From assembly GCA_030272155.1 (NCBI GenBank), contig CP126193.1, forward strand, positions 2,852,001 to 2,916,000: DNA of 64,000 bases, written 5' to 3'. Under the pieces are notes generated by a model that saw only the letters and a list, made by a program, of their open reading frames with translations, had not been told where the DNA came from and did no database searches. The stretch's first letter is position 1, and the number at the start of each line of letters is the position of its first letter. This document shows positions 2,510 through 58,900 of the stretch, in pieces. The translations under genes were made by a program, and so were the position numbers. This DNA comes from Tetradesmus obliquus. Lineage: Eukaryota > Chlorophyta > Chlorophyceae > Sphaeropleales > Scenedesmaceae.

Positions 2510-3469
2510 TCAAGCTGACAAATGCTGCTTCAGAAAAGTGATGAGCCGGTCAAACGCCTGTTTGGGCTCAGCTTCTGGTGGCTCGGCTTGGCCGATCTCT
2601 GCACAAGGTCACCATAGTGGGGTTGCAGCAGCAGGACAGGGCAGATGCAGCAGCAGGACAGGGCAGACACAAGTCATTGTCAAAGAGTATTTGCTGCAGT
2701 GTATGTAGCAAGACTGAGCAGTAGAAAAAGGTACAGTAGGCTTGCCAGCAAATGCGAACAATGCATATCTGCCAGGCCAGTCACCATGAACTTCACTTGG
2801 AAACCCTAGTGGCCGCTCCCACAGCGCAGTGGCGATGCAAGGCACAATGAAACTGCAGTGCAGTGCAACAGCGTCCTCACAGAGCCATGTGGCAAGGACA
2901 ATGCAGGATCACCCTGACATGCTGCGCAAGTAACACACCTTTGATCTTGGCTCGGCCCTTTTCCGTGAGTGCATTCATGAAGGCATGGCCGCTGCCGTCA
3001 TACATGAACAGCTCCACAGACGCCCCGGCTGCCTTCATGCTGTCAACCACCTTCTTGATGGACTCCGGGTCACTGAAACCCTGCAAAAATGACGGCATTC
3101 GAAAGAGTCAGCACCAGGTGTGCGCTCACATGGGACAGTGCACTGCTTGAAGGTGCGCACATTTTTTCCCTGTTAGACTGTCCATCTGTACAGTGCACCA
3201 GGTATGCGTCAGTTGCAGATGGCAGCGGACCGCAGGACACGCAGCGCCCTTCCGCCCCAGCTGCCCGCATGCTCAAGCTTTCTTGCCTTTGGCCATAAAC
3301 TGTACACCAATTTGAACACTCTAACAGTAGCTGGGCCACGACATGCTTCCCTACATATGCTTGGTTTGCTTCCATCCACCCCCGCACCTGCATTGTGTCC
3401 AGCTTGCCAAAGTGTGCCTGCACAGGCACCTTGATTGCTGCAGGCTGTACACAACATAAGAAGCAGCAC

Positions 3470-7415: not shown

Positions 7416-10400
7416 AAGGCACCTGGCGCAGCAGCTGGTAGCGCAGCCTCAACAGCAGCAGCAGCAGCTGCTGGTGCAGCTGCAAACGGGGCACCAGCAG
7501 ATGCCGCCGTTGCAGCAGCAGCAGAGGAGGAACCAGCAGCCAAGCGCCAACGCACAGCAGGAGACAGCAGCAGCACCAGCTCAGCAGCGCATGCTGCTGC
7601 AGCAGCAGCAGGTGGCTGGCTAGGGCTTGGCATGTCTGCTGCTGCTCCTGATGTGGTGTGCTACATGTGCCAGCTGGCAAGCATCCCTGGCAAGTTCAAC
7701 CCTAAGAAGGCTGCACAGCTGGGAGTGCCGCGCGGACCGGTGAGGGGTGATGCAGCATCATTGATGCTATGCCAGCTGTGCTTGGGTCCTGTTGGTTGCG
7801 TAGCTGGGCTACTCGCATGGTGCGGGTGACGGTTATGTGCAACATGTTAAAAGCTCTGCTCAGTAGCTGCTGGAACAAGGCAGCTGGCCCCTCCGCATGC
7901 TGGCCAGTGGTTTGACAGATGCGCTTTTTTAGAGCAGGAGGTGTTCTCGTAGTTGGCTTGCAAGGCAGCGCTGTTGCCATGCCTGTACATCTGCTGCTGC
8001 TGCTGCTGTCATGCATTTTGATGCTTGCAGATGCTAGGGGAGCTGCAGCGTGGCATTGCTGTCACCATACCCAACGGCAAGGTCATCCAGCCTCACGAGG
8101 TCATGGACACGCCAGCAACGCCAGGCGCATGCCTGCTGCTGGTGGACTGCCCCAGCGCAGCATACCTGCCGGGCCTACAGCAGCAGCAGCAGCTCCAGGC
8201 CTTGCAGCAGGAGGCAGCACAGCTGCAGCTGCAGCAAGCGCCTGATGTTGTGGATGCTTTTGGCAGCAGCAGTGGCGACAGTGAGCAGGTTGCTCCTACA
8301 AAGAAGTTCATAGTGATCCACTTGGGCCCTGCCCATGTTACAAGCTCTGAACCCTACATAGCCTGGGTTGCAGGGTTTGGGCCTTCGGTGCAGCACTTGA
8401 TGGTGAGCAGTGACAGCCAGCACAGCCCGACTGTGCTGCGTGCAGCTGTGCTGCAGGCGCAGCTGAATGCAATTGAGCCAGAGGTGTTCTCCCTGCAGGG
8501 CTTCCAGGCCCTCATACAGCAGCAGCAGCAGGACGCAGGTACTGCAGGATTGCAGCAGCAGCAGCAGCAGCAAAGCAATGTGCTGGCTGCTGGCAATGGC
8601 TGCCGCTTCACACTAGCCCCCCTGAAGCACCAAGGGCTAATGCTGGAGGCAGTCACTGCAGCACCAGACCTGCAGCAAGTGCAGGTGAGGCGCGGGGCAG
8701 CTGTGTGCACTGCAGCAAGCAGTAAACATGCGCAGCTCACAGGTTATCGCAGGGTACTACGGTGACGTGTGTCGCAACGCAATGATCCTACATCATGTTG
8801 ACACCAGCTTAGGTCCTGTGCTTACATGTACAATGCTATGTCTACAGCTCACAGCGGCACACGCTCAAGCATGTCGCACAACAGTCTGCGATGGTAGCAG
8901 CAACTGCTGTGTGGCCTTGCGTGATCGATGGTGGCACTCGTTGGCAGCTGCTGGATTTAGTTGTGGTCCAGTTGGTGTCGTACTGCGTGGCTCTGTAGGT
9001 GCTGTAAACTATTGCTGCTGTCTGCCAGTGAGGGCCAGTCGCAATTACTGTGCAGCTCAGCAAGTGTGTTGGCTGCTGTTCTGTAGGCCGAAGTGCATGA
9101 CAGCAAGCGCGCAGCGCTGCTGCAGATGCTGCAGGACTACCAGGCAGCAAAGGCACAGGTGCAGCAGCAGCCGGCACCGCAGCAGCTGCAAGGCATCGGC
9201 AGGTGCGCAGGCACAGCTCTAATTATTCCTGCAGCCTGTGTCCAAGCAAACATCTGTCCCATATGCTGAGGGCATGTTTCCTGCACGAAGATCATCGTTA
9301 CGGGGTGGCAGTGGCGATGGCATGCAGTGCTGCTGGAGATATTGTGCCTTGCATGGCATTGTGTCAGCAGTGATGCCGTGCAAAGCAGCCTGTTTCCAAT
9401 CTGCAGCATGCCAGGAATGCTGGCTGCGTGCAGCCACAAGTTGCAGATCAGGTGGCAGCAAAAAGATCTGCAACCGCAATTTGCAGATGATGCCCGCCTG
9501 GCTGTGGCGTAGCCCACAAAAGTATAGTCACGTGCTTGCACTGCCCTGGTTTTGTGTTTCTGCTGTTCCTGCAGGCGTGCTGCGGAGCTCACGCTGCTGG
9601 GCACCTGCTCCGCCTGCCCCAGCAACCACCGCAACGTGTCAGCATACTACCTGGACCTGTTTGACAAGGGTGGCCTGCTCATGGACTGCGGTGAGAGCAG
9701 CTGCAAGCCATACACAGCTACAGCAGCAGCAGCAGCAGCCGCATTGCGGTAGTATTGGGGTATGGGAGCGTTGTATATGTTGTTTGGGCGCTTGTTATGC
9801 TGTGTGGATCACCGCATGCCGGCCTGTTGGTGTCGAGGGGAGTGCCTCAAGCAAGCACTGCGTCTTCAGTCCACCTCGTATGTGCCTCTGCTCAGCGCAT
9901 GCAAGCATGGGTGGCAGCTGCCGAGTTTGTCGTCGTGGGCGCACCTTTGACAATGCCACAACTACTACTGCTGCTTTCCGTGCTGCTGCTACCGCTGCCA
10001 GGTGAGGACACCATGGGCCAGCTGGAGCGCCGCTTCGGGCGGCAGCAGGCCGCGCAGCGCATCCTGGGCCTCAACGCAATATGGGTCAGCCACATGCATG
10101 CCGACCACCACGGCGGCCTGTACCCGCTGCTGCTGCGTCGGCAGCAGCTACAGCAGCAGCAGCAGCAGCAGCCGCAGCAGCCGCTGCTGATTATGGGCCC
10201 CTGGCCGCTGTTCCGGGTGCTGAGCAACTACGGTGATGCGCTGGGGCTGCAGTTCCGCTTTCTGCCCAACACGTACTTCTGCGCTGCGCGCTCGCCGCAC
10301 GAGCCGCCTGCTGCTGCGCTGGCAGCTTACAAAGCAGCGCGCGAGGCTGCGGGGCTGTCTGTGCTGGAGCCCTTCCCTGTGCAGCATGTGGCGCACAGTA

Positions 10401-17330: not shown

Positions 17331-20300
17331 ATGCCGAAAGCAAAGAAGAAGAAGAGAAAGGGAGCAGCAGCGAGATCAGCAATAGACGACATAACTAGGC
17401 AGGAGATAGCTGAGGAGATTTTAGCATTAGAGGCGATCTACGCATCGGACTTCACTCTTCACCAGGATGGGCTCGGCTTTGCTCTGCGCGTGGTGCCCTA
17501 CACCTCCGAGCAGGACAACTATACTGCGGTGGAACTGAATGTCAGGTACGGACGACTTGGCTATCACCCAACAACTTGCAGTTTGTTGTGGGCAGCAGCA
17601 GCAGCAGCACTCTTTGCCTTGGCACAAGATGACCTGCATCTCAAGGGACAGGCGCCAGTGATTTCCGCCCTGTGCAATACAGCGCTTCAATTGCTTGAAG
17701 TTGTGCCGCTGCAGCTGTGTTTAAACCAGAGCAAGGCTAGCAGTTGTGCATCAGTGCTGTTGCTCCACCATTGAAAGCTGCAGGCACCGTTCGTCACACG
17801 CACTTGCTGCTTGTACAACCATCCGACATAACAGCGCTTTTGGGTGTAGTGCTCTGCCTGGCTGCGCAGTGCTTGACCCGCCAAGGGTCCTGCAGCTGCG
17901 CTTTTCTAGCGCACAGCGCTGCCACTTGCACGCAATTGCGTGTCTCAAGACCCACCGCTTGGCACTCCGCTGTGTTTCTTACACCTGTAGCATGCATCTG
18001 ATGAGAGCGTTTCTCCCAAACCCTGCACTGGTAGCTACAGACACCACCAGCTGCATCTTCTGTGATCATATTAGGTTTTGACAGCCGACACACCTGACAC
18101 CTTGCTGCCGCAGGTACACCGCCGGCTACCCCTCCACCCCCCTGCAGCTGCGCCTGGCAAACACCACAGGCCTGCCGCCAGCTGATGTGAAGCAGCTTGC
18201 AGGACAACTGGAGGAGGCAGCAGCAGCCTTTGCACAGCAGAGCACGGTGTGTGTCTTCAACCTCGTTGACCTCTGCCAGGACTTCCTGCGAGAGCACAAT
18301 GAAGCAGCGCAGCAGGCGGCTGCAGCAGCAGCGCTGCAGGAGCAGCAGCAGCTGGAGGCAGCAGCGGCTGCGGCAGCAGCGGGCAAGGACGGCGCAGGCG
18401 CGCAGAGCTTGTGGCACGAGATGCAGCAGCGCATGCAGCAGCAGGCTGCTGAGCGAGAGGCTGAGGTGTCGGTTGGTGGGCCTGGTGGTGGGCTGAGCAG
18501 CAACGTGCTAGGGGAGGACCTGTGGATGTTTGATGGGGGCCTGTTTGCAGAGGAAGGTGAGCAGCTCGGCAAAGTGCCGGCACAGCAGGGTGCTTGGCGT
18601 TATGTTGAGTCGTTATAATGTTATGGCCAGTCATTACAGCAGATGTTATGGCCAGCCAGCACAGCAGCAGTATGGTTGTATCACGCACGCTTTCCTGGCT
18701 CAGCTTCCTGCAAGTCAGACAAGGCAAGAGACAGGAGCACAGCACCTGCGCACTGTCCTGAACGGCGTGACCTGCATCAGCAGATACACGCAGCAGTCCC
18801 AGAGGGGGCGATGGCAGACGCATGGTGAGCAACTGCATCCTTCCATCACCATTTTGCCGCCAACTGAGCAGCTTGGCACCTGCCGTGCTCCTTACCTGCT
18901 TGCACATTCACTTACTTGCGCTGCTGCTGCTACTGCTGCTGCTGCCTTTGCCGCCAGGCGAGCCGTCCTTCGCTTTGCCGAATCTGGCCACACCCCACGC
19001 ACCTCATCCTGCAAAGGGCCGCAGGTTCAACCCCAAAGCAGCTGCCCGTGCAGATCAAAGCCCTGAGCCCACCTCGCGGCTGGGTAGGGTGCACAGCGCT
19101 CTCTCGCCAGAGATGCCCTCAGCATCACCCAAGACACCTTCTTACATGGACAGAGCAGCAGCGGCAGCAGCAGCAGCAGCGGCAGCAGCAGCAGCAGCAG
19201 CAGCAGCGGCGGCGGCTGCTGGGAAGAGTCCGCGGCTGCCTAGGCCAGAGACGCCACAGAAAGGGCAGCCTGGCGCAGCAGCAGCAGCAGCTGGCAGCAA
19301 TGCTCTGGTGGGTGCGCAATCACCTACAGTGAAGGCAGCAGCAGCAGCAGCAGCAGCAGCAGAGGCGCGAGGTGCAGGCGTACAGCAGAGGCAGCAGCAG
19401 CTCCCTGGCAACCCATCTGCACAGCAGCCAGTAGATCAACAGGCAGCTCAGCCTGCACAGCAGCAGCAGCAGCAGCAGCAGCTGCTAGCACAGGATCAGC
19501 AGCAACAGCAGGCTGCTGGGCAGCAGCAGAAGAAGCTGCATCAGCTGCTGCTGTCGCACAGGCACAGCTGCAGCTTCTCCAACCTGCCAAGGGGCCTGCA
19601 GGAGCTGCTCAACAGCAGCAGAAGCGGCAGCAAAGGCAGCAGAAAGCACCGCCACAAACACAGAAGCAAACAGCTGGAGCAGCAGCAGCAGCACTTAGCA
19701 ACAGCAGATGCAGCAGGGCAGGGTGCACAATCTGCGGGAGCAACAGCAGGACCTGGAGCGCCAGCGGTGCTCGGTGTGTCCTCTGCTGCTGCTGCTGCTG
19801 TTGCTGGCCCACCTGCTGGGCGCATAGGCTCCTTAGTGTTTGGTGATTTTGACAGCAAGACGTACCAGCACCTGAACAGCGACAGTGATGGCGAGCCCAC
19901 CAGCAGCAGCAGCAGCAGCAGCAAGCAGCAAAGCCAATCCAGGAGGCATGCGCGTGGCGCAGCACATGCTGCTACTGCTGCCGCTGCTGCTGCTGGTGAA
20001 GGGGAGGTGTTTAAGAGCTGCATGTCTGACTCTGATCAGTCTGATACAGCAGCAGCAGCTGCTGGTGACTCTGGCAGCGACTCAGGCTCAGAGTCCAGCA
20101 GCAGCAGCAGCAGCAGCAGCGCTGGCGGCACCACGAGTGACATAGATGCACCTGAGGAGGAGGGAGTGAGCCTGCGGAGCCAGCTGCTGCTGGGATACCT
20201 GCTCATGCTTGCTGCAGGATCTGCTGGCTCAGCCGCCAGCAGCAGCAGCGGCACCGCAGCAGCAGCTGAAGCCGGCAGCAGCGCAGCCGGCGGCGCGGCT

Positions 20301-23300
20301 GCAAGCAACAGTGCGGCTGGCGGCAGTAGCACGCTAGTCAGCAGCAGCAGCAGCAGCAGTGCCAAGGGTGTGCTACCGCCTGCCAGCTTGCCGCTGCTGG
20401 CCAGCCATTTGAGGCAGGCTGGGCTGCTGCCAAAGTGGGTGCACTGGCTGCTGCAGCAGCTGCCGCAGCGGCCTGAGCTGTTTGACAGGGCCTTCCTGCG
20501 CCTGTTCCAAAAGGTGAGTGTGCACTCATGTGGTGATGCTGCGGCTCTGCTTGTTGAGTTAACGTTACCACCACCCCTTGACAGAGCCTTCCTGCGCCTG
20601 TCCCAGAAGGTGTGCTGGGTGCTGCTTGAGTTTGCATGGGAGTTGTGCTTGTTGCTTGTTGCCTGCTGTGTTTGTGTAGCTCGCTCAGGGGCTACTGACG
20701 CACAAGCCGGGCAACGCACGGAGCTGGCATTGGGGTTGCAGGCACACAGAAGGTGTGTGCTCCGTGTGATTGCTTGTGCTTGAAGCCAGGTGTTCAGCAG
20801 ACCTGCAGTATACAGCACGGCCTCAGGGCTATCAGCTGGCAGTTTGTAACTGTCGCTGCTGCTGCTGCTGCACCTGCAGGAGATCCAGGAGTGCTGCAAG
20901 CCTGAGGTGCTGCCCAAGGCCTCGCCAGACCAGCTGCTGCAGCTGTTTTGGGACAGGCAGGCACAAGTAGCAGCAGCCGAAGCCGCCGCCGCCGCTGCTG
21001 CTGCTGCTGCTGCCGCGACACCAGCAGTGACCCCAGTGCGTACGGAGAACCCAACAGGGGGTGCAGCAGGCACGCCAGGTGCTGCTGCTGCCACAGCAGC
21101 TGGGCCAGCAGCAGCAGCAGCAGGGCAGGCGGCGCTGTCGCGGTACCGCAGCGACTTTCAAGAGCTCAACCCTTTGGGGCGAGGCGGCTTTGGGGTTGTG
21201 GTGGCAGCGATTAACAGGTGCGGTGGTTGATGGTTTCTTGACGGTACTGCCGCGCCTGATGCATGCTTTTATCTTTGATTGTGCGACGCGTGCAGGGCTA
21301 CATGGATGCAATGCCGGTGCTGCTGTTTGCCCTGCGCGTGATCGTTTGTGTGCTGGGAATTACGTGTTGCAAAACCCAGCATCTGCACAACCTCCTGACA
21401 CTCTCAACCTGTATGTGCATCTTGGTGAAGTTGTACGCCCAACCGTGCCTGAACATGCGTGAGGGGTGCTGCGCTGTTGTGCCTTGTGCAGGCTTGACGG
21501 GCGCAAGTATGCAGTCCATACGTACGCTCAGCCCTGCATGACCGTGCCCCACCACACCTCTCACCCAGTTTCACACCTCATTTTCAGCGTGCTTTGCGCA
21601 TGGGGGCTGCTGCACTTGCTGCGCTGCGCTGTTATGCCCTGTGCAGGCTTGACGGGCGCAAGTACGCAGTCAAGAAGATCAAGTTACAGCCTGGCGGCGG
21701 CAGCGGCAGCTATGCGCGCATCCTGCGCGAGGTGGCCACACTCAGCAGACTGCAGCACCCCAACGTGGTGCGCTACTTCCAGGTGAGGCAAAAGGCATTT
21801 TATGGAACATACTTGGTGTGTATGCTGCTTGTATTGGTGTTGTGGTGCCGATATGGCATGCTGCAGCACCCCAACGTGGTGCGCTACTTCCAGGTGGGCA
21901 ATTTTGAGCCCTGGAGCCTCACCCAGCGTCCTTTGTTGGTGTGTGTGCTGCTTGTTGTTGTGCTACGTGCTTCGATGCAGCAGGCTGCAGCACCCCAACG
22001 TGGTGCGCTACTTCCAGGTAAGCAATTTTGGGCCCTGGAGCCTCACCCAGCGTCCTTCGTTGGTGTGTGCTGCTTGTTGTGTTATTTGCTTCAATGCAGC
22101 AGGCTGCAGCACCCCAACGTGGTGCGCTACTTCCAGGTGAGCAAATTTGGGGCCTGGAGCCTCACCCAGCGTCCTTTGTTGGTGTGCTGCTTGTTGTTGT
22201 GTTATGTGCTTCAACGCAGCAGGCTGCAGCACATCATCATTGTGCGCTACTTCCAGGTGAGACTTCATGGGGAGCTGTGCGGTGAGAGCTGTGTTCTCTG
22301 CAGCCAAATCTAGGTTTTGGTGTTGTAGGTTGCCCGCTGCTCTTTGTATTGGTGCTTGCCGCCACTCTCAGGCTGCGCCCCTCATGTGATGCCTCATGCC
22401 CCTCATGTGATGCCTCATGCCCCTCATGTGATGCCTCATGCCCCTCATGTGATGCCTCATGCCCCTCATGTGATGCCTCATGCCCCTCATGTGATGCCTC
22501 ATGCCCCTCATGTGATGCCTCATGCCCCTCATGTGATGCCTCATGCCCCTCATGTGATGCCTCATGCCCCTCATGTGATGCCTCATGCCCCTCATGTGAT
22601 GCCTCATGCCTCCTCCTGATGCTGGTTGGGTTGCGGCACACACCACCGCCTCTGCGCCTAGTGACCAGTAGCAGGCGAGCTTGCATCCCATTTGTCACGA
22701 CTGCAGCTCTGTGAATCTGTTGTGAACAGCATCGCCTTCCTGTGTGTGATGCTGTGTGTATGTGTGTGCGCGCGTGTGTCTGCTGCTGCAGGCCTGGACT
22801 GAGCTTGCGCTGGGTTCCACAGCAGGCATTTGCGCCCATGCGCAGCCCTTCAAACTGCCGGCGTGTGCCTGTGTGCATGTAGTTCGAATGTTTGTGTGTC
22901 TGCTGCTGCAGGCCTGGATTGAGCTCGCGCTGAGTTCCACAGCAGGCATTTGCGCCCATGCGCAGCCCTTCAAACTGCCGGCGTGTGCATGTAGTTTCAA
23001 TGTTTGTGTGTCTGCCGCTGCAGGCCTGGACTGAGCTGGCGCTGGGGGATGACGGCGATGCTGACCTGTCAGACGATGAGTCAGAGGGCGAGTGGGGCCA
23101 GCTTAGCAGCAGCAGCGACGGCGGCAGCGGCAGCAGCGATGCCAGCGGCTCATCAGCCTACAGCAGCAGCAGCAGCAGCGGTAGCTCGTCTGAGCCGGAA
23201 AGTGAGGAAGGAGATTCATCAGCATCAGCATCGGCTGCTGTGCAACGTGCAGGAGCGAAGCGGCGAGGCGTACTTGCTGCTGCAGGGTCCGCGCAGCGGC

Positions 23301-26060
23301 TTGGTTATGAGAGCAGCACAGGAACAGGCTGGGCCACAGCTACTAGCTCCCGCAGCAGCGGCAGCAGCAGCAGTGGTGCCGGCAGCAGCAGCAGCAGCAG
23401 CAGTGCGGAAGAGGAGGAGGAGAGCAGTCAGGAGCAAGGAGTGTTTGGTGACCCTGAATTGTCATTCCTGCCACACCTGCCTTCAGCAAAGCGGCGGCTG
23501 GCAGGCACAGCAGCCGCTGCTGCTGCGCGGCCTCCTTCTGCCGTGGGCAGCCCTGCAGGCAAGGCTGCAGCTGCAGCTGCACGTGCTGCTGCATCACCTG
23601 GCAAACAACCCAAGGTGGGTGCAGCATGTGATCTCAGCCTAAGCATAAGGGCTGCTTCTCGTTTGTTTATGCTGTCAACTGCGCTGATGCCATTCAATCG
23701 ACCCTGCAGCACACTGGTTGCTGACGCTTGGAACGTGCTGGCACCGCGCAAGGTTTTTGCTTATGTTTGCTGGCTCCCCAGCAAGCAGTTGTCTGCTGTG
23801 CAGTGCAGTCTAGGGGTGGAGACACCAGACAGCTTCTGCCGCTGCATACTCGTGCCTTACAGCAGTGTGTGAGCAGTGACAGCTGTTGCAGTGGCCACAG
23901 GGTCTGCTGCAGCTGCAGTTGCCAAGCGGCACTCAGTGGCGTGCTGCTGCTGTTTCTGCCTGTGCAGGGTGCTGCTGCTGCTGCCGGCTCCTCAGGCCGG
24001 CTGAGGCGGGGCCGCTCCACTGCGAGCCAGTCACAGCCTGCTCAGATCCTGTACATACAGATGGAGTTCTGCCCGCGCACACTGGCTCAGGTAATCCAGG
24101 ACTGTGGTAACGCGCGTGCATGCAGGTTCTTGGTGCAGGGCCCCATTTAGACATGTGAGTGAGCATTACGCTGCCTTGTGTCTGTTTAAAGTTTGCTTCC
24201 TGCAACTCTTCACACGCAGGTGCTGGAGGGTGGCGGCATGGAGGAGGCGTGTGCCTGTCCTGCAAGCAGCAATGTACATGCGCGCCCAGCAAACTCATTC
24301 ACGCCATCTATGTCTGTGCACATGCAACGTGGTCGTGTGCAGGTGCTGGAGGGGTGGCGGCATGGAGGAGCGCATGCGCTCATGCTGCATCAGGTTCACG
24401 GGCGCGGCTGCACCAAGCTCAAACCTGAGTATATTGCATGTGCCTCAAATTATATTGCATGTGCATGCATGCAGGTGCTTGAGGGTGGAGGCATGGAGGA
24501 GGCTGATGCGTGGCTGGTGCTGCGCGGCATACTGGCAGGCCTGGCTCACATCCACTCACAGGTGCGGGGCCAGGGCGGTGGCTGAGGCCTTATGGCGTGA
24601 GTGGTGCTTTCGATTTCTGCCAAGGTATCTGAGAACGTGCTGCTTGCTGGCTGGCCTAGCACACATCCACTCTCAGGTGCGGGGCGGGGCGGTGGCTGTG
24701 CTGCATTATCGATCTCTGGAACAAGGGATTTGAACAGGTGCTGCTCGGCATACTGGCAGGCCTAGCACACATCACTCACAGGTGCGGGGTCGGGCGGGGG
24801 TGGGGCGGCATGGTTGACTCGATAGTGCATGGGTTTTGAACAGGTGCTGCTGGCCTGGCTCACATCCACTCACAGGTGGGGGCCGGGGCGGGGGCTGAGG
24901 CGTAGGGGCGTGAGTGATTTCTGCCAAGGGATCTGAAAAGTGTTGCTTGCTGGCTGGCCCGGCCCAACTCCAATCACAGGTGCAGGGCCGCAGCCAAGAC
25001 TGGGCTGCATGTTTGCATTTTGTATTCGGCAGAGCTTAAAACAGGTGCTGCTTGCCGGGTGGTGATGCTTACAGCAGCACCTTCTACAGTCCACGCTTGC
25101 AGGTGTGTGGACTTGTTTTGGGTTGCATGGAACAGGCTGTCTGGCTGCCTATCACACAAGCTGCCTCTTCATCCTCTGCTTGTGATTTGCGTCCTCTGTG
25201 TTTGTGTCTGCTGTGCAAGCAGGGGGCCATCCATAGGGACCTCAAGCCAGCCAACATCTTCTACGACAGCAAAGGAGAGGTCAAGCTAGGAGACTTTGGC
25301 CTCGCCAAGTTCAACAGCAGCAGTGCAGCAGCAGCTGCTGCAGCAGCAGACGGCGCAGCCGATGGGGCCGGGCCTGCTGGCAACAGCGGCGGCAGCGGGG
25401 GCGGTGCGGCGAATGGCGAAGAGGGCAGCCCTCGTGCGGGGCACCGGCGGCTAAGCAGTGCAGCGGCGCGGGCTGTCAGCGCCACTGGGCCAAGTGACAT
25501 GACGGGGGTGTGCGGCACCGGGTTCTACATCTCTCCGGAGATCGCCAACGGATGGGCCAGCTATGATGAGAAGGTGCGAGATGGGCCCGCTATAACGGAT
25601 GGGCCAGCTATAACGGATGGGCCAGCTATAACGGATGGGCCAGCTATAACGGATGGGCCAGCTATAACGGATGGGCCAGCTATAACGGATGGGCCAGCTA
25701 TGATGAGAAGGTGCGAGAAAGATCGACTGCATGTGTGCTGCGGCGTGGTGCATGCCCTAGCTTGCTGCAGGGGCAATTTGTGCTGTCTTGGTTGGTCCTT
25801 GCACAGCCCTGGTTGTGTGGCCTTGATTAGGTACCAGCCGCTGCAAACAACAACAGAACAGGCTTCATGGAGAGGCCCCCAGTGTACCCATGCTGCCATG
25901 TTAAAACCTCAGAGTGATAGCCCGAGCTGAGCTGCTTGCAGCTTCCTATTTTACCAGGTGTCTGTGGTGGCGTATGCCGCATGTACACACCGTGTAACCC
26001 CTCTATCTATCTATCCCATGCTGCCAGATCGCTGTATATAAGGCGTATCGATCGCAGTCC

Positions 26061-26102
<42 letters not shown>

Positions 26103-27458
26103 GCGCGCCAGGTGGACATCTTCAGCCTGGGTGTGGTGGTGTTTGAGATGTGGCACCCCTTTGCCACCGCCATGGAGCGCGTGGTGCTGCTGCGGGAGCT
26201 GCGGGAGGGCGGGAGGATGCCCGCTGAGTGGGAGGCAGCACACCCGCAGGTGGCGCGGCTCATCAGGTGTGCCCACACAGACTTGTAACACTTGAGACAT
26301 TGCTGCAGCAATATGAGTGTGCATGCTGCTGCGGGGAGGAGGGGCGGCTGCCCCAAGGGTGAAAGGCAGCACACCCGCAGGTGGCGCGGCTGATCAGGTA
26401 AATATGCAACAGACACACCGCCAATAGGCAACCCAACTGTGACATTGCTGTGGCTCCATGGGTGTGCATGCTGCTGCGGGAGGCGGTACTGGAGTACTCT
26501 ATACTTCTCCAACACAAGAGGCTCACACAACCAGCTGAACTACCATTTGCTGACTGCTGCTGTGCGTGTCGTGTCCATCATGTGGTTGCTCCTCAACTTT
26601 GCACGCAACCAATCCGATCATCTCGCAGGTGGCTCATGTCGGCCAAGCCCGCGGACCGCCCCTCCGCACGCCAGGTGCTGCAATCCGAGCTGCTGCCGCC
26701 CCGCCTGGAAGACGAGCAGCTCAAGGACCTGCTGCGCAGCCTGCCGGACAACGCTGCTGCATACGAGCGCGTGGTAGACTCCCTCTTCAGCATCAGCAGC
26801 AGCAAGGAGCGCTCACAGGGCCTCCCCAGCCTGAATGCGGCTGCAAATGCTGCTGCTGCTGCTGGTGCTGATGGCTTGGTTGGATCTGGGCTGCTGTCTT
26901 CGCAGCAGTGCAGCCTGCCGCTCAGTGAGCTGCCTGGTGCGCCGCTGGAGTGTCACCTGGAGCTGGAGGAGGGCGTGTGCAGAGTGGTGCGGGAGGTGTG
27001 CAGCGTGCACGGCGCTGTGCAGATGAGCAGCACCAGCCTGGGGCTGAGCCACGTGGCACTGCCCAAGGTGAGGAGTGAGGGACGTGTGAGGGAAGAGTGA
27101 GGGGCGGAGTAAGGCAAGAGTGAGGGAGGAGTTGAGTTTTTTTTGCACCAGCCTGGGGCTGAGCCATGTGGCACTGCCCAAGGTGAGGAGTGAGGGACGA
27201 GTGAGGGAGGAATGAGGGGCGCAGTAAGGTAAGAGTGAGGGAGGAAATAGGTTTTTTTGCACCAGCACCAGCCTGGGGCTGAGCCATGTGGCGCTGCCCA
27301 AGGTGAGCTTTGTGTGACGTTGTGCTTGTGCTGAAGTGTGCTTCCTGCAATCCCGTACATGAGGCGCAGGAGGAATGAATGCCACAGTGCTGCGGTATCT
27401 CACCCAGCAGCAGCTATGCGCTTTGCTACTCCAGCATGTGTTGCAATGCCTGGCATCC

Positions 27459-27496
<38 letters not shown>

Positions 27497-30400
27497 AATC
27501 AACATGGCTGACCACGACCTTTACCCTTGTGATGCTGCACCCTTGTGCTGCTGCTGCAGGATGCTGTGCGCTTCCTGGCTCCCTCAGGCGCCCAAGTCTC
27601 GCTGCGCTACGAAGTGCGCTACCCGCTAGCGGTCTGGTTCGCGCAACAAGCAGCGCTCGCAGCAGCAGGCCCCTACGGTATGATCGGCGTCGGCAGCGTC
27701 CACAGCAGCAGCAGCAGCGGACACGGCCATCATCATGCGGCGAGCGCAGCGAGTGCATTGGAGCGGGGTTTGAAGCGGTTTGAGATCTGCAGGGTGCAGC
27801 GCGCGGGGCGGGGCGGGCGGGGCTTGCCTGCCAGCTACCTGCAGGCAGACTTTGACCTTATCAGCCCGAGTATAGCTGGCGGTGGTGTGAGGGAGCGCAT
27901 GCTTGCGGAGGCAGAGGTCATCAAAGTGGCTGCACAGGTGCGGGGATACAGGATTTGCGCTGTTTTTGCTACCTTGCAGCACCGCTGACAACCGCCACCC
28001 GCCCAGTACTAGTAGCAACAAGTTCAATCCTGTACAAAATCCTGATCACAGGAGCGCGCATCTTGTGGCAGCACGCTGTATCCTGGCATCCTGCATTGCA
28101 GAACAGGCCTTCTAGGTTTCATGTCCTCATTGCAGTGTTTTACCAGCCCAATCATGCTCGCAAGTCTCAGTTCAAACCTCCTGCGCGCCGTGCGCTCGCT
28201 GATCCCCTCTCAGCAGCAGCTCACACTCCTGCTCCTGCTTGCATGCCTGCTTGCGTGCATTGCGTGCAACCAAAACACGAACACCTCACCTTGCAGGTGC
28301 TAGATGCGCTGCCAGACCTTGGCCCTTACGAGCTGCGCCTCGGGCACAGCGCGCTGTTTGCAGCAGCAGTCGCAGGCCTCGGCTTGCCGCCTGAGGTATC
28401 CCCGGCCTCTGTGATGGCCCTGCTGGCATCTGCAATCAAAGTCTCTGCCTCGCAGCCTGCCACTGACACACCCAACAACAGCAACCACACTGGCACAGCA
28501 GCAGCTGGGGGCAGCGCTGCAGCTGGCGGCGGCAGCAGCAGCAGCAACAGCCATGCAGCAGCAGGACATGCGGGTGGTGCGGCCGGCGCAGGCGGCGGGG
28601 CTGGCGCGGCTGCCAGCAGCGGCAGCACCCGAAGCAGCAGCAGCAGCAGCGGAGGCAGGGCCAATGTGTGGCCTGCTGTGCGCGTTGGGTTGGATGGGCT
28701 GGGGCTTGATTCCAAGCCAGTGAGCAGGTGCAGGCAGTGCTTGCTGAAGTTGCCAGGTGGGTCTGGCGGCTGCGATGCAGCACACGTTCTTTGCTTGTGT
28801 GTTTGCGTGAGAGACTGTGTTTCCAGATGTTTAAAGCGAAATTGCATTTAGTAGCAGGCAAGCAGGCAGCAACAAATCCTGCTAGGACAGTTCCAACCAT
28901 GCTTGCTCGGAGCATAAGGGTGTGAATTTGCGCCAGCGCCGGGCTGAGCAATGGCAGCAGCAGCGCTGGTATGGCAGCTGAGCCTGTCTCTGAACTATAC
29001 GAGAAGCAGGCGCAGGCATCTTTCTGGAGGCTCCTGCGCCATTGCTGCAGCTAGCTTGTATGCACATGCCTCAACCTGGCACGTTGTACAGTAAAACCTC
29101 GAAGTAACGACACCACTGGGGACAGCCTAAAAATGTCGTTACTGTGTGTTTGTCGTTACTTCGCAACAGTTTTACGGCACTTCGGGCACTCTGGGGACAG
29201 CCTGACGTGTCGTTAGTATGCGAAAGTCGCTACTTCAAGCGTCGTTACTTTGAGGTTTTACTGTTTACAACCACACAGAGCCCTCGCACACCGGCCTTGC
29301 CTGTTTCATGCGCTTGTGTCTGTTCTATAACAAACAAAATCGTGTGCAATCTGCAGGCCCACTGTCCTCGCAGCTGCCGCTGCTGCGCTCGTTCCTGCGG
29401 GAGCTCAAGCCGCAGCTGGGCAGCGCTGCCGTGGCAGCAGCGCTTGCAGCAACAGAGGAGCTAGCCGCACTAGGGGAGCTGCTGCAAGCTTGGGGGCTGG
29501 CCCCTGGGCAGCTGCTGCTGGAGCCGCTGCTCACGCCACACTCGGAGCACTTCAGCGGGGTGCTGTTCCAGGTGAGGTTTTGAGGTTTTGTGGTTTAGCA
29601 GAAGGGTTCAGAAGCTGCTGGTGATGTTGTGTATGTATGTGTGTGCTGGTAGTTGCTGCCTGCCGTCGGCTGCCTTGCTTGCGTAGTTGCAGGATGCAGG
29701 GGTGGCTATGCTGCAGCTGGTACCTGCCGTTGCCCCTGTGTTTGGTGGCGGTCTTACACCTGCACAAGTGCTGCTGCTGCGGTTGCGGCTGATGTTTATG
29801 TGTTGGGGCGTTTGTACTGATTCGTGCTGTGTGGCTGGGTACTTTGCTTGTGCTTGCAAGCTGCTATTGATCTGCAGCAGCATATTGCTGACACGCTGCA
29901 TCCCTCTGTTTGGTTGTGCTGCTCCACCTGCACAGGTGCTGCTGCAGTCCACGCCGACACACTCTGGCGCAATGTACACCTCAGCAGTAGCAGCCGGCGG
30001 CCGTTATGACGCGTTACTTCGCAGCCTCTGGTCCCCTGCTGCAGCCACGCTCATGCCGCCACCCGGCGCTGTCGGCATCAGCATAAACTGCGAGAAAATC
30101 GTTAAAATGCTGCTGCAGAAGCGGCGTCACAAGGCTGGTGCAGCGCACGGCCATGGGAGTGCAGCCGCAGGGTTTGGGGGCTTGGGTTTGGAGGGTGGCG
30201 GGCGGCTTCCTGCAGGGCAGTGTGACGTGCTGGTGTGTGCGAGGGGCGATGATGGCATGCTGCAGGTGAGGCATCAGTGCATACGGGCACGTGGACGATA
30301 GGGTTGATAGGGATGATGTCAGCCTAGTGACAATCAGGGAGGAGCTCACATGGCTTCAGCGGTCCTCCCTTTGGGTGGTCCTGAGAACAGCCTAATCTCG

Positions 30401-31115
30401 CAGCGCTTGATATGAGGTGGGTGGCGTGTGGCCTGCCACTGCTCTCACTCCTAACCTCACTCTGTTTCTTTCCATTGTACACTATTTCCATGCCATCTGT
30501 CAGGTGCGGATGGAGCTGCTGGCGCAGCTGTGGGCCGCAGGCATCTCCGCTGCACTACTGCCCAAAGAGTCCCCCAGCCTCACCGAGCAGTACGAGTTCG
30601 GCCACGCCTCAGGGGCCCGCTGGCTCGTCATCCTTGACCGCAGCAGCCTACTCAGTAGCAGCCAAAGCGTGAGAGTCAAAAGCCTGGAGCGCAAGGGAGA
30701 GGATGTGTCTATCCACATCGCAGATCTGGGTCGCTTCCTGCAGCTATGCCTCAGCGGCGCGCAGGACCCCAGCCGAGGGATCGGGTCTGCAGTTGGCGCG
30801 GGCAGCGGCAATGCGAGCGGCTCCGTAGGCTCTTTCGGCGCGCACTTTGGCGCGGTCGGCGGCGGCTTGCAGAGTGCCGGCAGCGGCGGCAGCAGCGGCG
30901 CGACGCCGTTCGGCGGCGCGGGCTTGCTGCTGGGGCTGCAACGGGGGCTGCATAGGTCTGGCAGTGACAGTAGGTTGGGTGGTGTGTGTGACAGCATTGA
31001 TGCTGAGCTGGCGGAGGCTGGTGTGGGGCCTGGCGGCAGCAGTGCAGCGCTGAGGGATAGCCTGCGGGAGCGAGAGCGGGAGCAGGGCGGCAGGCACAGG
31101 GACAGGCGGCGGTAG
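17331..31115 (+). CDS. GCN2: eIF2-alpha kinase GCN2 (RWD, kinase, HisRS-like domains)
   Basis: GCN2 senses uncharged tRNA and phosphorylates eIF2-alpha to slow translation during amino-acid starvation. Sixteen exons: 17331-17545, 18114-18556, 18958-20513, 20880-21217, 21647-21782, 23024-23614, 23968-24090, 24475-24561, 25223-25573, 26112-26266, 26629-27067, 27560-27937, 28297-28756, 29357-29571, 29936-30265 and 30504-31115. Phases agree; about 2142 aa. The RWD domain is at about 20-130 (QEIAEEILALEAIYASDF). A 518-codon Ala/Gln/Ser exon follows. The kinase spans about 828-1355: LGRGGFGVV, YAVKKIKL, RLQHPNVVRYFQAW, HRDLKPANIF, GDFGLAKF, GTGFYISPEIANGW, DIFSLGVVVFEMWHPF. The HisRS-like region has RYEVRYPLAVWFA, FEICRVQRA, YLQADFDLISP and GGRYDALLRS. 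The C-terminal exon contains ELLAQLWAAGISAALLPKES. The 3' end of exon 28297-28756 is the least certain border. The gene is far longer than plant GCN2 because of low-complexity inserts. Confidence 0.93.
20576..20611 (+). repeat. Copy of GCN2 exon 3 end with its donor
   Basis: The end of exon 18958-20513 (DRAFLRLFQK then GTGAGT) is repeated about 97 bases downstream as CTTGACAGAGCCTTCCTGCG..., ending CAGAAG|GTGTGC. The copy lies in the intron. Confidence 0.85.
21467..21514 (+). repeat. Copy of GCN2 exon 5 start with its acceptor
   Basis: About 48 bases ending in the codons for LDGRKYAV, including the preceding TGTGCAG acceptor, duplicate 21623-21672 at a distance of about 157 bases. Only the downstream copy continues into the kinase frame (VKKIKL). 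Confidence 0.88.
21783..22256 (+). repeat. Fourfold tandem copy of GCN2 exon 5 end with donor sites
   Basis: The last 33 bases of exon 21647-21782 (LQHPNVVRYFQ, ending TTCCAG|GT) recur at 21861-21893, 21985-22017, 22104-22136 and 22224-22256. Spacing is 112, 124, 119 and 120 bases. Each copy is followed by a GT donor. The last copy is degenerate in its middle. The spacer between copies is also repeated, so this is a true tandem array of about 120-bp units. Confidence 0.93.
22379..22613 (+). repeat. 21-bp minisatellite, about 11 units, in a GCN2 intron
   Basis: Near-perfect head-to-tail 21-bp units built around CATGTGATGCCTCATGCCC. The 21-bp period keeps two plus-strand frames and one minus-strand frame open, but the array lies between the exons for RYFQ and AWTELAL. 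Confidence 0.93.
22774..23023 (+). repeat. Twofold copy of GCN2 exon 6 start with its acceptor
   Basis: The exon start GCCTGGACTGAGCTGGCGCTG, with its CTGCAG acceptor, is at 23024. Copies begin at 22792 and 22912 (spacing 120 and 112 bases). Spacer sequence is repeated as well. The first two copies are in frame with each other; the third is shifted by one base relative to them. Confidence 0.92.
24220..24474 (+). repeat. Twofold copy of GCN2 exon 8 start with its acceptor
   Basis: The exon start at 24475 encodes VLEGGGMEEAD. Copies with GCAG acceptors start at 24220 and 24343 (GTGCTGGAGGGTGGCGGCATG and a variant with one extra G). Spacing is 123 and 132 bases. Confidence 0.9.
24562..24985 (+). 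repeat. Fourfold copy of GCN2 exon 8 end with donor sites
   Basis: The exon end coding LAGLAHIHSQ followed by GTGCGGGG is repeated with divergence near 24648-24685, 24750-24795, 24844-24885 and 24948-24987. Each copy ends TCACAG|GTG or TCTCAG|GTG followed by a G-rich stretch. Exon 8 therefore has duplicated borders on both sides. Confidence 0.85.
25574..25720 (+). repeat. 18-bp array and copied donor at GCN2 exon 9 end
   Basis: Directly after the donor of exon 25223-25573 come about six units of 18 bp (ATAACGGATGGGCCAGCT). The array then ends with a copy of the exon end (CTATGATGAGAAG|GTGCGAG) near 25698-25716. The unit is derived from the exon's own codons for NGWASY. Confidence 0.9.
26062..26101 (+). 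repeat. CTG repeat, 13 units, just upstream of a GCN2 acceptor
   Basis: Pure CTG run ending about 10 bases before the CGCGCCAG acceptor of exon 26112-26266. Confidence 0.92.
26360..26398 (+). repeat. Copy of GCN2 exon 10 end with donor
   Basis: The exon end coding AAHPQVARLIR (26230-26266) recurs about 131 bases downstream, ending GATCAG|GTAAAT. That copied donor matches the usual consensus at least as well as the real one (CATCAG|GTGTGC). Confidence 0.88.
27068..27303 (+). repeat. Twofold copy of GCN2 exon 11 end with donors
   Basis: The exon end coding TSLGLSHVALPK followed by GTGAGG (to 27067) recurs ending at about 27182 and 27302, spacing about 115 and 120 bases. The spacer (GTGAGGGA-type repeats and a T run) is repeated too. 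Confidence 0.92.
27461..27496 (+). repeat. CTG repeat, 12 units, in a GCN2 intron
   Basis: Pure CTG run about 63 bases upstream of the acceptor of exon 27560-27937. A shorter run touches the acceptor itself. Confidence 0.9.
29089..29263. mobile_element. MITE-like element with terminal inverted repeats, in a GCN2 intron
   Basis: About 175 bp bounded by inverted repeats of about 23 bp. The left end begins CAGTAAAACCTCGAAG and the right end finishes TTTGAGGTTTTACTG, with GTAACGAC/GTCGTTAC inside. The element has no coding capacity. Its interior repeats GGGGACAGCCT and GTCGTTAC. The ends resemble those of Tc1/mariner-pogo elements in starting CAGT (family comparison from memory). A clean TA target duplication is not evident. 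Confidence 0.8.
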
Positions 31116-55907: not shown

Positions 55908-58900
55908 ATGGGTGTGTGAGGTGTACTCATGGTGTGCGTTGTGGTAGGGGCAGCGCTGGCGCCTTTTGGCTGCCAATGCCTGGCCAGCGCGTGTTGCATT
56001 GCCGGTTGATTGTTTGTGACAGGCGCGAGTGAAGCGAACGCGGATATGTGCCACAGCTGATGAGTTTGGTGTGGGGGTCTGCGGTGTGTCTGACAAGGAG
56101 GCGTGTGCAGAAGTTAACAGAGGGATTACATGTGGATGCATGGGTGGTGTGTTGCTTGTGAGCGGCAACAGCCTATGCATGCTGCCAGCTGTTTCTGCGC
56201 GTAGGCCGGCGGCCATGGTGCATGCAAGCAAGCAGGGCCAAGCAGCCGACACCTGCCGTCCACATTCTTTTGTGCAGCGCGCGTGTGCCCTGATGCAAAG
56301 CGCCTTCTGCTTGCGTTTGTCCACACCGCTAGCATGGCGCGGCACCCTATCGAGTGCTGCGTGTGTTGGCTAGGCAAGAGTGAGAGATACGGCTGTGCCA
56401 CTTGTGGTCCAGCCGACGATTGTATCAGCAGCACTTGGGTTGCCATGTGCTGTGCGTGGGGCCTGGCACAGGTGGCTGTGGTATGGTTCCGCACATTGTT
56501 CCTTTGTTATGGTGCAGAGTGATGTGCTATTGCTACTGTTATCACAGTCGCAAGCCGATTGCAAAATAGCGCACCACTGTAGGGTGTCAGGTTGTGTGGG
56601 GGGCTGTGCTCTCATTTGTAGCTGTGTCGGTGTGTGGTTGGGTTTCCTTTGCGAGCCTGTTGGTGGGATCATCAGAACGGATGCAAGAGTTGCTGCTTCT
56701 GGCCGTACACCAACCGACGTTGCAAGTGGTGCTCGCCCGCAACCTGCTTGATCTACGCTGCTTTCGAGCGTAGCATGCGTGTGTTGTGTTGCACTGTTCC
56801 ATTGCCCACTGCTCGCTGCAGCAAGCCCGTGCCCCGGCACCTGCTGGATGCACCAGGTTACAGCTTGGAGCGGTTTGTTTCATTTTTTGTCATGGCAGCT
56901 GTCATGTGGTGGTGCTGCTTGTGTCGCATGCAGTGCTGTATTCCGTGGTGCTGCATGTGTCGCATGCAGTGCTGTGTTCTGTGGTGCTGCATGTGTCGCA
57001 TGCAGTGCTGTATTCTGTGGTGCTGCATGTGTTGCATGCAGTGCTGTATTTTGTGGTGCTGCATGTGTCGCATGCAGTGCTCAGTGCTAGCATGCGATAG
57101 TGGAGCTGTCCGTGTTGCCTGCACTGGCACGGATGCTCAAGCACGAGGGGGTTGCCTTGCATCAAAAACTCCGGACCTTGGATCTGGGCGATCTGGGCTA
57201 CGTAAAACTTGCTTGTATTGTACCTTTGTTCTCAGCGCGACGCTTGCTGCCTTTGGCAGCTGCTGCTGGCACGTGGGGGGCCTGCGCGGCTCAGTAATTA
57301 CCAATTTGGTTCTGGCCACCTGCCTGTGCCCGCTGTAAAGGCGTGATCAGTGCAGCGACAGTGCATGTGATGCTCACAACAGCAGCGCCAGCGTGCAGCA
57401 AAGTTTGCAGGCTATGTGTTGTGGGTGCTGCGTGTGCATCAGCTGACGTCAAACTTGCTCTTGGGCTGCACTTGCGCCAAATCTGCTCACACCTGCAGCT
57501 GAGGGGCCGGCTACAATGCTCCGAGCATGTGACAGAGCATCTGTGGCATGCTCAGTCGGCTGAAACATGACATTGTGGGAACATGGAGGCTGCAGCACTT
57601 GGCCAGCACGCCGCGACTGCTGTGGTGTTGTTGGGGTGGCGGTTGCTGTGCCTGTTGTTTGCCAGATAGCAGATCTGTACAAGCGGAATTGGCGCATGTG
57701 CAGCAGCCTTGCTCATTGCTAGCCTTGACATACTTGCATTCTGAGGTCTGCTACCTTCGTTGCGCATTGTGGCAGTGCTGTCTTCAGCCGTTGCTGTCTA
57801 TCTGCTGCCTGCAAGTCGCAAGCAGTGCAGGAAGGGCAACTTTTGGGGATGGTAATTGCCTTGGCCAGCTATGCACTGGCCAGCTGTACCCCAGATGCGT
57901 TGCACGTCTGACGCGCTGTGCGGGCACCGGCACGGGGTGCAGCAGCCAGCAGGACAGGTTTGTCACCTGGCATCTGTTTTTTCTTGGCTTCATCCGGTCA
58001 ACGCATGCATGCAGGGTTTAGAAGTTTGTATATTGCAGTGGCAGCGGTTGTGTAGTGTGCTTCTGCTCCTCCTGCGGTGGTTACATTCTTGCGCACATCT
58101 GGTCAAAGCATACTCGGGGCGTCAGCCCGATGAAACGCAAGCACAGCACTGCCGTGCTGCAGCTGTGACTGCAGGGCAGGCAGCCGTGCAGCCTGGTGCT
58201 GACTGGCCGCGTGCCAACCCCTTCTTGTTGCTGTATATCGCAGGGTGAGCTGGGCTGGTGCCTTGAGCTGAAGTTTCAGGTCAAGCAACAGCAAAGGCCC
58301 AAGTGCGCGGGGTTGCGTGCACAGCTTGGCGTTGCTCTGCTGTGAATGTTGCGTTCCATGCCAGCTGATCCATCTGCAGTGAGACCCGGTGGTTGTGTCT
58401 CCTGCAGTGTCGGTGGTCTTGCTGTGCAAGCCTGATTGGGTCCTTGTTGGGTACGGGTGTGTGCTGCCAGGCAACGTGCAGAATGAAACCCGTGCAGTGC
58501 AGACAGCTGCATGTAGCTGACAGCTCGGCAGTGGTTCGTTGGAGGTGGGTGTGGACTCCTGTGGTTGCCCAAGTCTCTAAAATGTGTGGAGCTGTCAGCA
58601 GTTTTGTTGCACGTGCAGGGGCTGAACCCGTTGCCTGCAAAACAGTGGTTTGGTGCTTTGCTATGGTTAGAGGTTGACGGTGCGACAGCCTTGGATGCTG
58701 TGCAAGTGCCTTGCATCATATGATCGTTACATGATAGGGGATGCGGCAGTGAAGGCCTACATGCTGCCTTCTTTTGCGTAGTTGTACATATTATCCAGCC
58801 ACATGTCACATGCATCGTACCATCGCTGCAGGCATATGTGGGTGCGGCCCCCTGCCATGCCAGGACTAGGGCGTACTTTGGTTGCTGTCGTGACGGGCTG

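Follow-up and report, generated by a model that had tools for sequence, protein, structure and literature searches.

Why should the introns of a single gene carry, one behind the other, copies of that gene's own exon edges? The question is raised by a stretch of 64,000 nt from Tetradesmus obliquus (contig CP126193.1, positions 2,852,001-2,916,000 of the forward strand; genome of 104.66 Mb in 17 contigs). We refer to this whole stretch of analysed DNA as the window. An earlier note had described in it a serial duplication of exon-intron borders throughout the gene for the stress-signalling kinase GCN2, and had offered a locus-specific process, intron gain or growth, or splicing control as possible meanings.

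Exon-edge copies in the GCN2 gene

The gene was modelled with 16 exons on the plus strand at 17331-31115, and a home-made gene finder, trained on the window sequence with a minimum intron of 60 bp, returned exactly these bounds. With the exon-side splice sites, and with the borders of exons 9 and 10 set by hand, the spliced model gives a single open frame of 2098 aa free of inner stops. Searched in three pieces, it produced Pfam matches to RWD (6.2e-17), Pkinase (1.2e-56, obtained with two low-complexity stretches omitted) and HGTP_anticodon2 (1.8e-7), and the five best PDB matches of exon 9 were all GCN2 chains. By these domains and matches the predicted gene is GCN2, an eIF2-alpha kinase. 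No Pfam family that would represent the HisRS core was found for the exon pieces 29359-29571 and 29948-30265. Among ten pieces submitted to Pfam in that search, only GCN2 exon 9 and a piece from the sampled stretch L015, with a glutamate-cysteine ligase domain, gave matches. If exon 9 is instead ended at the copied donor, as in the automatic GCN2 model, the frame also stays open, but the VDIF part of the kinase is lost.

A gapped search of each GCN2 intron with both neighbouring exon edges, with shuffled introns as control, identified 18 copies with a recognizable junction (13 donor, 5 acceptor) at nine of the 30 borders and in eight of the 15 introns. All borders named in the earlier note, the donors of exons 3, 5, 8, 9, 10 and 11 and the acceptors of exons 5, 6 and 8, were found to carry copies. 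The nearest copies lie 96-155 bp from the true border and successive steps measure 94-132 bp, in good agreement with the spacing of 97-132 bp given before. GT or AG is kept in 18 of 18 copies; 16 of them match the true edge with 82-98% identity and the other two at every aligned position, and splicing at 12 of the 18 would change the reading frame. The exon portion copied without gaps measures 21-38 bp at eight GCN2 borders, compared with at least 87 nt for the exons there, and tandem (mutually exclusive) exon duplication was rejected for GCN2 on these grounds.

The edges, copies and duplications described next lie on the plus strand. The true donor edge of exon 3 (20482-20516, border after 20513) has one copy at 20578-20612, 96 bp away, with 32 of 35 positions identical and GT and frame kept. 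Exon 5 (21647-21782, true acceptor before 21647 and true donor after 21782) has an acceptor-edge copy 155 bp upstream at 21485-21516 (31/32, AG kept) and four donor-edge copies at 21861-22261, with junctions after 21893, 22017, 22136 and 22256. The steps of this donor array are 111-124 bp and its spacer is repeated across copies; in the first copy the edge is identical at 33 of 33 positions and the spacer strongly diverged. Two copies of the exon 6 acceptor edge follow at 22785-22932, their exon parts starting at 22792 and 22912, with steps of 120 and 112 bp before the true exon, which starts at 23024. Intron 5 also contains a 21-bp array (22377-22615, 11.3 copies, 99%), located between the arrays of exon 5 and exon 6 edges.

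Exon 8 (24475-24561) is copied on both sides, as the earlier note had stated, with two acceptor copies at 24213-24370 (exon parts starting at 24220 and 24343, the second aligning only with a one-base gap) and four donor copies at 24639-24988 (junctions after 24676, 24781, 24875 and 24979), the second of which misses one exon base. Behind the true donor of exon 9 (after 25573), the region 25580-25718 comprises five further partial copies of 18 bp each and a terminal full donor copy that reads AAG followed by GT at 25710. The 18-bp array itself (25580-25701, 99%) derives from the final bases of exon 9 and has a period far below that of the other edge copies. The donor edge of exon 10 is copied once at 26364-26399 (131 bp away, 35/36) and that of exon 11 twice at 27145-27307 (junctions after 27182 and 27302; steps of 115 and 120 bp; spacer repeated). 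In addition, one duplication lies entirely within intron 10 (26296-26480, lag 145) and one in intron 14 ends just before the acceptor of exon 15 (29734-29945, lag 168). At least two GCN2 copies contain one-base indels; in others the amino-acid sequence is altered, as read by eye in the fourth copy of exon 5 and the fourth copy of exon 8. Intron 13 holds a 177-bp element (29088-29264) with 24-bp terminal inverted repeats that are 96% complementary; it has full or partial relatives in at least 16 other genomic places and resembles a small, non-autonomous transposon of the DNA type.

A scan of the window for ungapped direct matches (lag 40-400 bp, score of at least 18, short-period repeats masked) revealed ten clusters, all of them within GCN2 (nine at score 22, eight at score 24), with none in five dinucleotide shuffles and none at the control lags 3000-3360 and 8000-8360. 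The earlier observation is confirmed, and its statement that no other gene of the window shows such density is upheld by the absence of exon-edge copies from all 35 predicted introns of those genes. A 36-bp array at 56909-57081 (4.8 copies) was noticed outside every predicted gene.

Spread in the genome, step length and position at splice borders

For comparison we sampled this genome in 30 further stretches, each of 10 kb, and counted 28, L019 and L020 being excluded as satellite-rich. The former (L019:2224-8949, at the start of contig 17) has long arrays of ~167 bp, perhaps a subtelomeric satellite, and the latter (L020:1-6039) long arrays with units of ~277 and 340 bp, in a stretch classed as 65% coding by the gene finder. 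Counts refer to predicted introns under an ungapped, automatic exon-edge rule, 284 introns in total from the window and 28 loci. For the GCN2 counts, three 27-nt mini-exons predicted on exon 5 copies were recoded as intron; mispredictions of this type persist in the models of other genes, e.g. in L002. Exon-edge copies occur in 31 of the 234 introns in the 28 stretches and in 38 of 284 overall, and the affected introns belong to 17 genes, GCN2 included. By the same rule GCN2 has copies in seven of 15 introns and is denser (p = 0.003), a value that, like the other p-values given here, assumes independent copies and depends on home-made gene models. Its density is approached by genes in L008 (4/14 introns), L015 (3/7), L021 (3/5) and L029 (3/13). 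The spread between genes exceeds chance, the observed value being reached in 200 of 20000 shuffles, or in 690 when GCN2 is left out, and GCN2 is therefore to be regarded as a dense member of an uneven class: it is among the densest of many affected genes and not unique. A locus-specific duplication process is contradicted by the copies outside the window, even though GCN2 is denser.

Copies were found at 28 donor and 15 acceptor borders. The exon parts in the copies reach 191 bp in L002 and 170 bp in L029, so whole-exon copies may exist there. The youngest-looking case is an array at an acceptor (L002:2627-2959) with 137-bp units of 100% identity; the sequence upstream of its first copy is unlike that before the later copies. 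Two GCN2 arrays were searched against the 104.7-Mb genome, with very common words skipped, and matched only GCN2. Those two are thus not mobile elements, and an introner or other dispersed mobile intron element was ruled out for them.

The step is narrow. In a lag survey of the window and 26 loci (without L029 and L030; lags of 20-1000 bp), 57 of 75 clusters had a lag of 60-200 bp (median 116, quartiles 106-132). When the scan was limited to 60-200 bp, the median step was 115 bp for border, 102 for exonic, 144 for intronic and 128 for intergenic clusters. The similar steps of border, exonic and intergenic clusters suggest that the step is independent of splicing; its mode was measured in one genome only, so that rarity elsewhere is not implied.

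With lags of 60-200 bp the window and the same 26 loci yielded 66 clusters: 34 border, 7 intronic, 6 mixed, 9 exonic and 10 intergenic, where the window clusters at 26233 and 27030 were counted as mixed but are border clusters when assigned by hand. Border clusters account for 34 of the 47 genic non-exonic clusters, compared with 17.2 +- 2.8 by random placement, and none of 2000 trials reached 34. Because the true exon edge decays more slowly than its surroundings, we also ran a forward simulation of duplication and decay with the same detector; at assumed mutation and indel rates it placed 36% of clusters at borders by the same rule (P = 5e-7 for the observed 34/47), and 45% of the detected simulated clusters (402/891) truly spanned a border. 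Splice borders thus hold about twice as many clusters as either placement or simulation predicts. In a motif test that uses no gene models, with the window and blocks above 130 bp left out, donor-like motifs occurred in 15 of 58 copied blocks (5.1 expected, 0/1000), and acceptor-like motifs showed no clear excess (24/58, 19.7 expected). All ten genic non-exonic clusters with a best score of at least 60 are border clusters, the remaining four of the 14 clusters at this score being intergenic or exonic, and at 28 of 68 borders a copied block ends on the intron side within 10 bp of the border.

Fate of the copies, probable intron growth and competing explanations

In the sampled genes no selection on the copied splice sites or on frame was seen in GT/AG retention or in lag frame. 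Of 56 in-register copies, 46 still have the copied GT/AG, where the neighbouring edge predicts 47.2, and lags are multiples of three in seven of nine exonic but only 12 of 34 border clusters. Third codon positions account for 115 of the 184 differences in 55 of 60 copies; within the automatically derived GCN2 set the count is 16 of 17 and outside GCN2 it is 99 of 167, the expected share being about half by our own estimate for a true exon that drifts only at silent sites. Such a bias hints at constraint or conversion. We did not accept that the copies are under coding constraint, since the synonymous-looking automatic GCN2 set omits more decayed copies, including two with one-base indels, and in view of the share found outside GCN2. 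Donor copies have an acceptor-like AG at their far edge in 19 of 25 cases (12.2 expected, 2/200; score 0), or in 7 (4.4 expected) at score 4, whereas strong far-edge sites (score 6) are not in excess (2, 1.6 expected) and acceptor copies show no far-edge excess. A pseudo-exon design was rejected, as the far-edge signals are weakly in excess only at low scores and only in donor copies. Judged by their sequence, the copies look like decaying by-products.

Complete introns with copies have a median length of 438 bp (n = 37) and those without of 291 bp (n = 228; p = 1.2e-7). Since longer introns give duplications more room, this difference supports the intron growth considered in the earlier note, but is no proof of it. 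The idea of an intermediate of intron gain drew no support: the signature of AGGT-type gain, a border repeat whose step equals the intron length, reached score 14 in none of 265 introns (best 11, offset control 10). Among five green algae compared in a published table, T. obliquus, with 57% GC, has the longest introns on average (462 bp; PMC5966456).

The spacers between true edges and their copies qualify the picture of a tandem duplication spanning the splice site. In a test of 40 nearest copies (three further borders were dropped for an ungapped edge below 15 bp), the spacer aligned to the intron side in 20, to neither side in 17 and to the exon side in one, and was too short in two. Edge identity is 0.916 for the 17 copies without homology together with the exon-side case, and 0.926 for the class with alignable spacers. 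A spacer without homology at about equal edge identity is not the product of plain tandem duplication, and the proposed mechanism is supported for 20 of the 40. Similarly, the repetition of the spacer applies to the donor arrays of exons 5, 8 and 11 and the acceptor array of exon 6 but not to every copy. The 20 to 17 split may reflect two kinds of first event or a loss of spacer homology, and later expansion best accounts for those arrays in which the spacer is repeated.

The explanation that we consider reasonably probable is a genome-wide, recurrent short tandem duplication with a step of ~115 bp that is tolerated where the exon-side site stays in use, so that introns grow. Such a process, which could originate in repair or template switching, would generate short direct duplications of narrow step throughout the genome. 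If the duplicated piece straddles a border and the site next to the exon body stays in use, the copy would land in the intron, the protein would be unchanged, and the intron would be longer by one unit. The copied edge and splice site, presumably retained passively, would then decay. Once two exon-edge copies are present, unequal exchange or slippage could expand the unit of edge and spacer into arrays, as at exon 5. This explanation leaves the border excess and the non-homologous spacers of 17 out of 40 nearest copies unaccounted for; passive retention predicts fewer border clusters than were observed, which counts against it, as do the over-represented donor-like motifs and the third-position bias.

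It is the border excess that gives some weight to an alternative which we nevertheless hold to be unlikely, namely that the duplication process is itself drawn to splice borders, e.g. by transcription-linked breaks, R-loops or chromatin at exon ends, so that border copies arise more often and do not merely survive. The twofold excess over placement and simulation, the donor motifs recovered independently of gene models, the border position of all ten strongest genic non-exonic clusters and the many block ends within 10 bp of a border argue for it. Against it, exonic and intergenic clusters have similar steps, so that the process also acts away from borders; acceptor-like motifs lack a clear excess, and the comparison depends on assumed simulation rates and home-made gene models. 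Attraction to borders would be compatible with most of the favoured explanation. Its stronger form is speculative and we regard it as rather unlikely: splice borders would be true mutational hot spots with a fixed reach of ~115 bp, at which the transcription or splicing of a gene would duplicate that gene's exon edges and so lengthen its introns.

The non-homologous spacers, for their part, are what gene conversion would leave behind, if old duplications were kept alike at the edge by conversion from the true exon while the spacer diverged. The 17 unalignable spacers and the first copy of exon 5, with its intact edge beside a much diverged spacer, agree with this reading, which we find improbable. 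That the copies are functional alternative or poison splice sites tuning GCN2 output is in our view very improbable, although every GCN2 copy keeps its GT or AG, 12 of 18 would shift the frame and give early stops as poison sites should, the automatic GCN2 differences are almost only third-position and donor copies have a weak far-edge AG excess. GT/AG retention across the sampled genes matches expectation and border lags do not keep frame; GCN2 copies include one-base indels and amino-acid changes, strong far-edge sites are not in excess, acceptor copies show none, and copies occur likewise in 16 other genes. An assembly artefact might be suspected from a few identical arrays (L002, 196 bp at lag 137), but 16 of 18 GCN2 copies, and likewise most copies in other genes, differ from the true edge, and we consider it exceedingly improbable.

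Relation to known systems

The pattern is real and unusual, and wider than the earlier note supposed: a recurrent short tandem duplication with a ~115-bp step, over-represented at splice borders, that probably makes introns grow. Intron lengthening is usually explained through transposons. The 38 affected introns among the 284 sampled would represent a visible step of likely growth from an intron's own border, one whose length is characteristic and which is over-represented at splice sites. Their spare splice sites, of graded age and placed beside the presumably used ones, constitute a natural set with which spliceosome choice among near-identical sites and the fragility of DNA at splice borders could be tested. 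Titles and abstract openings of the open-access literature searched contained no serial exon-edge copies in an alga and no precedent for the scale, the narrow step or the border excess.

Single events of this kind are already known. According to excerpts of the report on the potato RdRp gene, a tandem duplication across an intron-exon boundary created a new intron there (PMC4974935), and in both systems the duplication crosses a splice border and the splice signals are inherited from the parent border. Unlike that single case as described in the excerpts, the duplications here are serial, have a narrow step, affect 38 of 284 sampled introns and were not seen to create a new intron. Intron gain by AGGT tandem duplication likewise involves short tandem duplications that copy splice sites, but in the outline consulted it is exonic sequence that is duplicated, and the step sets the length of the new intron, a signature found here in 0 of 265 introns. 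A possible source of the duplications is offered by the small tandem duplications that arise when Pol alpha-primase fills in the ends of breaks; the accessible part of that work links short duplications from break repair to natural human and plant insertions (PMC8355091). Those are similarly short and arise from break repair, whereas the copies described here are known from sequence alone, and the 115-bp mode and border bias were not found in that part of the paper. Polyubiquitin, with its tandem array of dual-specific AGGT sites (PMC10809524, from excerpts), resembles the present arrays in that potential splice sites recur in rows; there whole coding monomers are repeated, whereas here partial exon edges are repeated within introns.
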